A stretch of DNA of 64,000 nucleotides, taken from the NCBI GenBank assembly GCA_030055515.1, contig JASFYI010000001.1, forward strand, positions 620,001 through 684,000. Reading direction: 5' to 3'. Origin of the DNA: Methanolinea sp. (GTDB lineage Archaea > Halobacteriota > Methanomicrobia > Methanomicrobiales > Methanospirillaceae). Position 1 is the first letter of the stretch. The number at the start of each line of letters is the position of its first letter. The notes beneath the pieces are model-generated. The model was not told the origin of the DNA, ran no database searches, and was given only the letters and a program-made list of their open reading frames with translations. This document shows positions 33,807 through 36,619 of this stretch, in pieces. Position numbers and translations under genes: made by a program.

Positions 33807-34065
33807 AGCTTGACTCTCATGTATCGTTCTCCTCCAATATAGGTTTAGGGTTCCCGCTCCACCCGCCGCAGGACCCTATTTTCGAAAATTTTAGGAGAAT
33901 TTACCAGAATGCCTATTCTTCACTGGAGAATGGTTCCATTGTTCCAGCTCGTGACCGGAAAACCACACGAACGTGGTCCAGCGTATCCGCACGGGAGGAG
34001 ATCTCGCAGTCTTGCAGCGCACCGTTCCGTTTTTATGTTACCTTGGAGCATACTCTGATTGTACC

Positions 34066-35235
34066 ATGTCCGGCTCCTCCCGCCTCCTCGCTACCGCACA
34101 CCATACGCTCCATGAGAGGAGGGACACCGTCAAACTCTTCATCATCGCCACGTTTGCAGTCACCTCCCTTGTCTTCACCCTCTTCCTCGTCGTCTCCCGC
34201 GACCAGGCTTTTGCGACGTCGCTCTACCCCCTCATCCCCCACCTCTACCTCATCCCCATCATCCTCCTCGCGCTCTGGTACCCGCGCCGCGGCCTCCAGA
34301 TCACGATCCTCCTCATCGCCGCGATACTACTCCTCACAACGGTACTCTTCCTCGAGGGGATCGTGCAGAACCCCTTCATCTCCCTCTTGAATGCCGGGAT
34401 GGACATCGCGATCTTCGTTGCACTCGCGCTGTACGCGAAGGACAGGACACTCGTCGAATCTTTCCTGCGGGGATTCTTCGAGCATTCCGGTCTTGGAGAG
34501 ACATTCGAGGAGGCGATGGAGCACCCTTCCATCCGGGCGAAGATCAAGTTCGAGGGTGCGTTCGAGGATGTCGTCCGCGCCCTCCATAGCCCCGACGAGG
34601 AGGTGCGGGAGGAGGCGGCAAGGGCCCTCGGAGACCTCGGGGACAGCCGGGCTGTCGAGCCCCTGATCGGCCTCCTCTCCGACGAGAACCGGTACGTGCG
34701 CCGCGAGGCCGCAAAGTCACTCGGCAAGATCGGCGACGAGCGGGCGATCGTCCCGCTCATCAATGCACTCAAGGACGAGGACCGGTACGGGAGGGAGGGG
34801 GCGGCCGAGGGCCTCGGGGACATGGGGGAGAAGGCACTCCCCCACCTCCTCTCTGCCATGGAGGATCCCGACTGGCACGTGAGGATGGGGGCCGCAGTCG
34901 CCCTCAGGCTCATCGGGGACAAGAGGGCCCTCCCCGCCCTCACCCGTGCGATGCAGGACGAGAACCGGTTTGTCCGGCGCGAGGCCATCAAGTCCCTCGG
35001 CCGGATCGGGGACCACAGCGTCATCGACACGCTCATCGCCGCGCTGAAGGACCCTGACAGGAGCGTCCGCCTCCGTGCGGTGAGTGCCCTCTCGAAGTGC
35101 AACGATCCCCGCGTGGTCGAGCCCCTCATCGAGGCGCTCAACGACGAGGATTCGGGGGTTCGGCTGCGTGTCATCCGGGCACTCGAGGAGATCGACGACC
35201 CGAGGGCGATACAGGCGCTCAACAACACCATATAA
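34066..35235 (+). CDS. Membrane protein with cytoplasmic HEAT-repeat domain
   Basis: A 389-residue protein. Residues 20-120 hold about four hydrophobic segments (TVKLFIIATFAVTSLVFTLF; LYLIPIILLALWY; ITILLIAAILLLTTVLF; AGMDIAIFVALALYA). From about 160 to the end there are seven HEAT/PBS-lyase-type repeats of 30-31 residues (pattern D-x-VR-xx-A-xx-AL-xx-hyd-GD-x-RA-hyd-x-PL). These form a curved protein-binding solenoid. It lies 150 bases upstream of the archaellin genes on the same strand but has its own promoter (TTTTTATG, 34030-34037). A link with motility is only positional. Confidence 0.8.
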   Translation: MSGSSRLLATAHHTLHERRDTVKLFIIATFAVTSLVFTLFLVVSRDQAFATSLYPLIPHLYLIPIILLALWYPRRGLQITILLIAAILLLTTVLFLEGIVQNPFISLLNAGMDIAIFVALALYAKDRTLVESFLRGFFEHSGLGETFEEAMEHPSIRAKIKFEGAFEDVVRALHSPDEEVREEAARALGDLGDSRAVEPLIGLLSDENRYVRREAAKSLGKIGDERAIVPLINALKDEDRYGREGAAEGLGDMGEKALPHLLSAMEDPDWHVRMGAAVALRLIGDKRALPALTRAMQDENRFVRREAIKSLGRIGDHSVIDTLIAALKDPDRSVRLRAVSALSKCNDPRVVEPLIEALNDEDSGVRLRVIRALEEIDDPRAIQALNNTI

Positions 35236-35308: not shown

Positions 35309-35320
35309 AATATTTATAAA
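35309..35320 (+). promoter_or_regulatory. TATA box of the archaellin operon
   Basis: AATATTTATAAA is a strong TATA element preceded by a purine-containing stretch. Predicted initiation is near 35335-35341, at the foot of the leader stem-loop. Confidence 0.7.
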
Positions 35321-35332
35321 TAAGGAGGCTAA

Positions 35333-35383
35333 TCTACACTTACGGGCTAACTGGAGGGATCCGTTAGTCCCGTGAGGTGTAGA
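35333..35383 (+). promoter_or_regulatory. Archaellin leader stem-loop that includes the ribosome-binding site
   Basis: Bases 35333-35355 pair with 35360-35383: nine pairs (one G-T), a bulged G, five pairs, a bulged T, five pairs, a bulged T, three pairs and a GGGA (GNRA) tetraloop, 22 pairs in all. The ribosome site GAGGTG (35374-35379) lies in the 3' arm and the stem ends two bases before the ATG at 35386. Confidence 0.75.
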
Positions 35384-35385
35384 CT

Positions 35386-35970
35386 ATGAAGAACGAAGGA
35401 AGGAAAGACGACGCGTTCACCGGGCTAGAGGCCGCGATTGTGCTGATCGCATTCGTGGTCGTGGCTGCGGTGTTCTCGTATGTGGTGCTCGGTGCCGGGT
35501 TCTTCACGACGCAGAAGAGCCAGGAGACCGTGTACGCGGCAACGAAGCAGGCGAGCGCGAACCTCGCGGAGTCCGGGCCGGTGGTCCTGCAAATTGATTC
35601 AAATGGGACATACGTAAAAACCATCAGCTTCAACCTGAAACCGGCTGCGGGTGCCTCACCGATGGATCTCACGAAAATTACCTATCACCTGACAACAACG
35701 GCACAGGATGTCCTCTACATTGACCAGAATGCCACGGGCTCGAGTCCGAAGATTTCAAGAATCGAGATCACCGGTGACCATGATCATCTGCTGGAGACCG
35801 ACGAAATGTGGAAGGTTACAATTGATACGACCGTACCTACAGAGGATGTGCTCATAGGGACAAATGATCTCTTCTCAATTGAGATCAAGCCTGATGTAGG
35901 TGCTTCCTTACTCCTCCAGAAACACGCGCCCGCAGGATTTACTGCGAATTCTTACTACGAGGTGTATTGA
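35386..35970 (+). CDS. flaB1: Archaellin FlaB1 (ArlB)
   Basis: Major filament subunit of the archaellum, 194 residues. Class III signal peptide cleaved by the FlaK/PibD peptidase between A10 and F11 (KDDA|FTGLEAAIVLIAF), then the hydrophobic filament-core helix (11-50) and a variable beta-rich outer domain. N-glycosylation sequons are visible (NGT near residue 73, NAT near 115). The first 40 mature residues are identical to FlaB2. GAGGTG seven bases before the ATG is the ribosome site, held in the leader stem-loop. Confidence 0.95.
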   Translation: MKNEGRKDDAFTGLEAAIVLIAFVVVAAVFSYVVLGAGFFTTQKSQETVYAATKQASANLAESGPVVLQIDSNGTYVKTISFNLKPAAGASPMDLTKITYHLTTTAQDVLYIDQNATGSSPKISRIEITGDHDHLLETDEMWKVTIDTTVPTEDVLIGTNDLFSIEIKPDVGASLLLQKHAPAGFTANSYYEVY

Positions 35971-35971
35971 G

Positions 35972-36619
35972 ATGTCCCTAAGAATGAATGATTTGGAGAG
36001 GGCATTCACGGGCCTCGAGGCCGCAATCGTCCTGATCGCATTCGTTGTCGTGGCCGCGGTGTTCTCATACGTGGTCCTTGGTGCCGGATTCTTCACAACG
36101 CAGAAGAGCCAGGAGACCGTGTATTCGGCAACGAAACAAGCAACATCAAGTTTTGAGGTCATTGGATCCGTGTATGGGATCGCAATAACTTCAAACGCTG
36201 AAAATATCTCCTACATCAAATTCACAATTGGAAATACTGCGGGAGGGACTGCAGTCGACATCACCAAGGTTATTGTGGAATATACAGATGAGACAACCCG
36301 CTGGGGTGGACAGCCGAGAGATGCATCACCCGCAGGTTACGGTCCACCTGGATATGATCCAGCTACGAGTATATCCATTACTGAAGAGCAACTTAAAGAT
36401 GCAACAACGCCGATGTGGGGCATCATCGAGAGGGTCAATGATGACGGGGACAATCTCCTTGAACCCGGCGAACAGTTTATCATCGGTATAAAGGTCCCCA
36501 CAACTGCAGCAAGGAATGTTCCATTTACCGTCACACTCCAGCCTGCAAATGGAGCAGCATATCCCATTGTCCGGAGGGTTCCTGCGGGTATCGACGTGGT
36601 AAACATCCTCGGGACTTAA
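35972..36619 (+). CDS. flaB2: Archaellin FlaB2 (ArlB)
   Basis: Second archaellin, 215 residues from the ATG at 35972 with GAGGTG upstream. Predicted cleavage A11|F12, identical core helix to FlaB1, but an unrelated-looking outer domain (GYGPPGYDPATSISITEEQ), so the two subunits likely differ on the filament surface. One sequon (NIS, near residue 73). The DNA of the outer domain is more AT-rich than the core. A T-rich tract follows, suggesting that most transcripts of the two archaellin genes end here. Confidence 0.95.
   Translation: MSLRMNDLERAFTGLEAAIVLIAFVVVAAVFSYVVLGAGFFTTQKSQETVYSATKQATSSFEVIGSVYGIAITSNAENISYIKFTIGNTAGGTAVDITKVIVEYTDETTRWGGQPRDASPAGYGPPGYDPATSISITEEQLKDATTPMWGIIERVNDDGDNLLEPGEQFIIGIKVPTTAARNVPFTVTLQPANGAAYPIVRRVPAGIDVVNILGT

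Follow-up and report, generated by a model that had tools for sequence, protein, structure and literature searches.

Does the leader of an archaeal filament-subunit gene carry a selected RNA structure and, if so, does that structure bury the ribosome-binding site? The question arises at flaB1 (35386 to 35970, + strand; PF01917, 1.9e-30), the first archaellin gene of the window, i.e., the whole 64,000-nt stretch of Methanolinea sp. DNA that was analyzed. It is followed by flaB2 (35972 to 36619, + strand), a second archaellin gene (PF01917) without a hairpin leader of its own, and by ORFs that presumably make up the remainder of the archaellum cluster, the later names having been assigned by reading the sequences. 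The archaellin promoter contains the TATA box TTTATAAA (35313 to 35320, + strand), recognized by its sequence and by its constant spacing from the hairpin in relatives. Directly upstream of the promoter, on the same strand, lies an ORF with repeated HEAT-like units of the EEAARALGDLGDSRAVEPLI type (33973 to 35235). Folding of the leader from 35333 to 35395 gives one hairpin of 22 pairs, with arms at 35333-35355 and 35360-35383, single-base bulges at U35352, U35368 and G35376, a GGGA loop at 35356-35359, and the flaB1 ATG at 35386, two bases past the stem. The original prediction had described this same hairpin, and the fold reproduces its arms, bulges, loop, GAGGTG position and ATG spacing exactly. 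Its judgment that chance formation is unlikely also holds for the full-length fold, the minimum free energy being -30.1 kcal/mol versus a mean of -15.0 (sd 2.9) for dinucleotide shuffles (z -5.28; 0 of 200 shuffles as good).

How much of this hairpin is transcribed depends on the start site. Archaeal TATA boxes lie about 19-23 nt from the transcription start (PMC5378194, PMC4247193), a spacing that places +1 at about 35340-35343. Within this interval, a position 25.5 nt from the TATA center, together with an invariant T followed by a purine (A or G) at 35342 in the alignment of all congeners, suggests that transcription starts at 35342 (+ strand). Since 35342 pairs with 35373 at the base of the inner, 13-pair stem (35342 to 35373, + strand, with bulges U35352 and U35368), the RNA should open with a blunt hairpin and leave free the Shine-Dalgarno sequence GAGGTG (35374 to 35379, + strand), which sits immediately 3' of that stem and is largely unpaired in the predicted transcript. 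The 5' side of the outer helix (35333 to 35341, + strand) would then be upstream of +1 and untranscribed, and its 3' side (35374 to 35383, + strand) would find its partner only with an upstream transcription start; the outer pairs of the 22-pair hairpin thus probably lie outside the transcript. From 35342, the leader folds at -18.1 kcal/mol into the 13-pair hairpin, with a z of only -1.95 and 6 of 200 shuffles as good. Because this start so reduces the single-sequence signal, it is between-species comparison, a strong line of evidence here, that carries the case for function.

Within the genus, archaellin is encoded in 12 of 13 genomes (the window's own included), all 12 of which carry the leader, and the thirteenth lacks both. 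Compensatory changes occur at four pairs of the inner helices, for example at 35342/35373, which changes from A-U to G-C among congeners, and the covariation score, a statistic that ignores tree relationships, is 0.142 against 0.101 for shuffled alignments (0 of 500 as high). The apex, GGAGGGATCC in the genus alignment, is invariant; in the window it occupies 35353 to 35362 (+ strand) and reads GGA-GGGA-TCC, a GNRA tetraloop at 35356-35359 on GGA/UCC. In the outer helix, no pair has changed on both sides, the outer 7 pairs showing no compensatory change, and pairs are broken in several congeners.

To follow the element across the Methanomicrobiales, a covariance model was built from 12 archaellin leaders outside the genus and used to search 232 whole genomes from this order. 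The search used strict filters, scored only the best candidates per genome, and covered several genomes that are incomplete bins. It returned 24 matches at E <= 1e-3, 23 of which are found a short way ahead of the start codon of an archaellin gene; the model's 12 sequences overlap with the genomes searched, and 12 of these 23 matches, in 11 genomes, were absent from model building. The window's own leader scored only 16.8 bits, because of its bulge, and bulged and unbulged types were counted apart, the search alignment not having placed the bulge. In the alignment of 24 leaders, pairing stands at 87% and 6 of the 10 pairs have changed on both sides, with a covariation score (again blind to tree relationships) of 0.419 against 0.203 when shuffled (0 of 500) and at most 0.156 in slid-partner controls. 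G-U accounts for 26 of 166 paired cells, and these count as evidence at the RNA level, since G-U pairs only in RNA. The original prediction had proposed looking for compensatory changes in related leaders, and they were found both within the genus and across the order, in the inner helices; at the level of sequence comparison, the two sets together support a selected RNA structure in the archaellin leader.

The apex GGA-GRGA-UCC is nearly invariant and sits on stems of entirely different sequence. It was found in at least 18 genera of Methanomicrobiales, bulged and weaker forms included, among the 35 genera that have archaellin, part of which were inspected. One further genus has GGA-[C/U]GGG-UCC and one more a divergent form, and in genera lacking the apex many leaders still carry a hairpin with another loop near the predicted start. 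Several individual leaders deserve mention. One (L079:2937-2964) has the variant apex GGAG-GAGA-CUCC, one pair longer than usual. Two archaellin genes on one contig (L106 and L118; G125, contig C6) share the apex and the downstream 5' UTR and have different promoter regions, which suggests a duplication that retained the hairpin. Methanoculleus-like archaellin leaders (L025-L037 and L165) carry a different hairpin before the Shine-Dalgarno sequence, approximately CCGGATGA-N4-5-TCATTCGG, with a varying loop. In the wider phylum, two further matches in 394 genomes (L180 and L181) are not beside archaellin and look like chance; we take the second to resemble antisense 16S rRNA.

The position of the element is equally regular. 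Measured from the TATA center, the first G of the apex comes after 36.5 nt in most of the genus. In 20 leaders outside the genus this distance is 36.75 +/- 1.04 nt, whereas that from apex to ATG is 47.9 +/- 17.2 nt; apex-to-ATG values span 31 to 93 nt. For these figures, TATA boxes were picked by simple scoring, which was ambiguous at some loci; ties or weak boxes were settled by eye (e.g., L048, L053, L055, L062, L066 and L109), and the ambiguous L058, L080, L099, L106, L114 and L163 were excluded from the spacing statistic. By these sequence distances, the element is positioned relative to the promoter and not to the ribosome-binding site. In L154, which has a longer stem, the TATA-to-apex distance grows to 40.5 nt and the stem base is still at about +3; what keeps its place near the predicted start is therefore the stem base rather than the apex. 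TATA spacing places the start of the stem near the predicted mRNA 5' end in 29 leaders, and when the sequence is trimmed to that predicted end, folding begins at nucleotide +1 to +3 in most species; outermost pairs taken from free minimum-energy folds that included upstream sequence were noisy and were discarded. Other genera have their Shine-Dalgarno sequence 9-71 nt 3' of the apex, and in many of these genera it is clearly outside the hairpin.

A second gene family has the same layout. When 5'-terminal folds were compared for 46 strong-TATA promoters of contig C1 in the window's own genome, the archaellin leader ranked second in stability. First was the leader of a type IV pilin gene (PF07790, 4.3e-23) outside the window (G000:C1:581711 = L211:1711, - strand), with the 5'-terminal hairpin GTTGTGAGGGGAGGGGCCCGCCCTTCACAAC. 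This leader places GGAGGGGCCC 35.5 nt from the TATA center, the GGANGGGCCC apex having nearly the archaellin TATA spacing. This pilin form, with a stem of the GTTGTG...CACAAC type that begins about 10 nt before the apex, is also present in six further genomes of the genus and in one other genus, with the apex GGACGGGCCC. As a GGA/YCC tetraloop, the fold of the pilin apex is less clear than that of the archaellin apex, so kinship between the two is argued from sequence and position. Searching the 232 genomes with a joint pattern (TATA, 30-34 nt, GGANRGRYCC) gives 43 places, of which 29 are archaellin or pilin leaders and the remaining 14 mostly lack such a gene or hairpin; the reversed control pattern occurs at 12 places. 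The pilin frame itself (NENEDWNVDAVSPVVG..., near L211 position 1660, - strand) has no in-frame ATG after its Shine-Dalgarno sequence, for which an assembly frameshift and an unusual start are suggested as alternatives.

No Rfam family reached its gathering score for the window's leader, the relatives' leaders, a pilin leader or the own pilin leader; the only weak match was Acido-1 (12.2 bits, E 3.9), which was rejected. No published report of this leader element was found in the open-access literature, subscription papers lying outside the scope of the search. An intrinsic terminator or attenuator was dismissed, as the sequence 3' of the stem, GAGGTGTAGACT, contains no U-run. Other apex-hairpin matches in the own genome mostly look like coding sequence, among those inspected and without systematic annotation; one hairpin or palindrome that is apparently intergenic and not beside archaellin (L086, G000:C1:565432-565457, + strand) reads GTGGGGGAGAGATCCCCCAC, with the apex GGAGAGATCC.

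What might such a hairpin do? The explanation that we favor, with moderate confidence, is an RNA hairpin at the 5' terminus that acts in cis to protect or mark the mRNAs of filament subunits. Specifically, a blunt hairpin would start at, or a few nucleotides from, the 5' end of the archaellin mRNA, with a stem maintained by pairing only, a sequence-specific GGA-GRGA-UCC apex and a Shine-Dalgarno sequence left free. The hairpin would shield the front of this very abundant mRNA against 5'-end-dependent decay, and its invariant apex may be read by a putative RNA-binding factor tuning the stability or translation of filament-subunit mRNAs. Three things lead us to infer the shielding: where the hairpin sits, bacterial precedents (PMC3997798) and archaeal 5'-3' decay; the last is documented in Sulfolobales, together with 5'-end protection by aIF2 (PMC3792030, PMC3936769). 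The own genome encodes an RNase J family protein (G000:C1:67761-69158, + strand), whose match contains one in-frame TAG, which may be the true gene end, a sign of a decayed gene or an error. End protection alone leaves the invariance of the apex unexplained, and it is this invariance that points to recognition by a factor, whose putative scope extends to filament subunits in general because the pilin mRNA has the same layout. A more tentative extension, possible but in our view doubtful, is that the archaellin and type IV pilin mRNAs of Methanomicrobiales form a post-transcriptional regulon, in which a +1 hairpin with the apex GGA-NRGR-YCC would be read by a dedicated, putative RNA-binding protein that controls how long the mRNAs last, their translation or their delivery to where filaments are assembled.

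The constant spacing would also suit a DNA-binding factor, which counts against a reading at the RNA level. In this main rival, a transcription factor would bind the dyad GGANRGRYCC (about +11 to +20) as an operator, at a fixed distance from TATA in archaellin and pilin promoters; the strict TATA-to-apex spacing speaks for such a site, as does the recurrence of one 10-mer, equally spaced from TATA, in front of two gene families. GGA/TCC and the spacing are conserved, but the rest of the dyad covaries, its flanking stem positions conserving pairing rather than sequence, with G-U pairs and a genus-specific bulge, a pattern for which a DNA site offers no explanation, and in L154 the apex has shifted 4 nt along with the longer stem. 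We consider an operator rather unlikely. Less probable still is the thermosensor, or ligand- or protein-controlled translation switch, in which the full 22-pair hairpin would hold GAGGTG. The very stable full-length fold speaks for it, as do three outer pairs (ACA/TGT) that never vary in 13 congeners and the RBS-masking 5' UTRs from alternative starts predicted in Methanolobus psychrophilus (PMC5378194). It requires, however, a start at about 35333, merely 12 nt beyond the TATA box, and an outer helix that is uncompensated, in addition to which the Shine-Dalgarno sequence is well outside the hairpin in other genera; the uncompensated outer pairs and the predicted +1 together make burial of the ribosome-binding site unlikely. 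The original prediction's central claim, that the leader buries this site, is accordingly not supported, and the caveat that accompanied it, namely that a late start would lose the outer pairs and expose GAGGTG, proved decisive, the predicted +1 at 35342 dropping the outer 5' arm and leaving GAGGTG mostly free. Among the functions it offered, a stability element or a protein-bound element remains, and a thermosensor or RBS switch is unlikely.

Similarly improbable is a plain stability hairpin without a specific partner, the apex of which would be kept only since GNRA loops fold well. The 5'-terminal position agrees with it, as do the hairpins near the predicted start in many leaders of apex-less genera and the bacterial precedents (PMC3997798), but GGA/UCC and GRGA hardly vary in at least 18 genera, in which the remainder of the stem is replaced entirely. 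An A-U closing pair does not make for the most stable GNRA loop, which points to recognition of the apex, if not to its recognizer. Finally, it is highly improbable that the apex GGAGG acts as a ribosome standby site or decoy contacting the anti-Shine-Dalgarno sequence of 16S rRNA; GGAGGG does resemble a Shine-Dalgarno core, but its GGA is paired in the fold and the GGAGAG, GGACGG and GGAUGG variants weaken the complementarity.

To our knowledge, few conserved cis-acting RNA structures have been described in archaeal mRNAs, and the favored 5'-terminal hairpin would add one that spans at least 18 genera, with a strict promoter-relative position, a nearly invariant tip and no matching Rfam family. 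CsrA reads GGA in loops or at the Shine-Dalgarno sequence. The hag and flaA leaders controlled by CsrA/FliW (PMC4894983) likewise present a GGA-containing site in a filament-subunit mRNA, whereas here the GGA is paired with UCC and not exposed in a loop, the Shine-Dalgarno sequence is separate, and CsrA (PF02599) is absent from the 13 genomes of the genus, for which reasons a CsrA/RsmA target was rejected. The 5'-terminal stabilizing stem-loops of ompA, papA and aprE, as cited in PMC3997798, are also hairpins at or near an mRNA 5' end and outside the ribosome-binding site; unlike them, the present leader is archaeal, with an apex nearly invariant across genera and a fixed promoter spacing, and its stabilizing effect is conjectural. 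RNA thermometers and other RBS-masking 5' UTRs, such as that of Hsp20 in Methanolobus psychrophilus (PMC5378194), offer a predicted hairpin in a methanogen leader as well, but there the ribosome-binding site is predicted to be masked and here the conserved hairpin does not include the Shine-Dalgarno sequence. EarA-type transcriptional control of archaellin operons (PMC10665913) similarly involves a fixed element near the archaellin promoter, with the difference that the EarA motif is in DNA upstream of the BRE and the element here is in the predicted transcribed leader. Lastly, FlbT of Caulobacter and Brucella (PMC4347634) is a dedicated protein proposed to bind a flagellin 5' UTR and alter the fate of the mRNA; it is bacterial, and its RNA site has no known relation to the archaellin hairpin. 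With the apex hairpin as a bait sequence for finding the putative binding protein, the element offers a test of whether archaea, like bacteria with their flagellins, use 5'-terminal hairpins and specific RNA-binding proteins for the mRNAs of abundant surface filaments.
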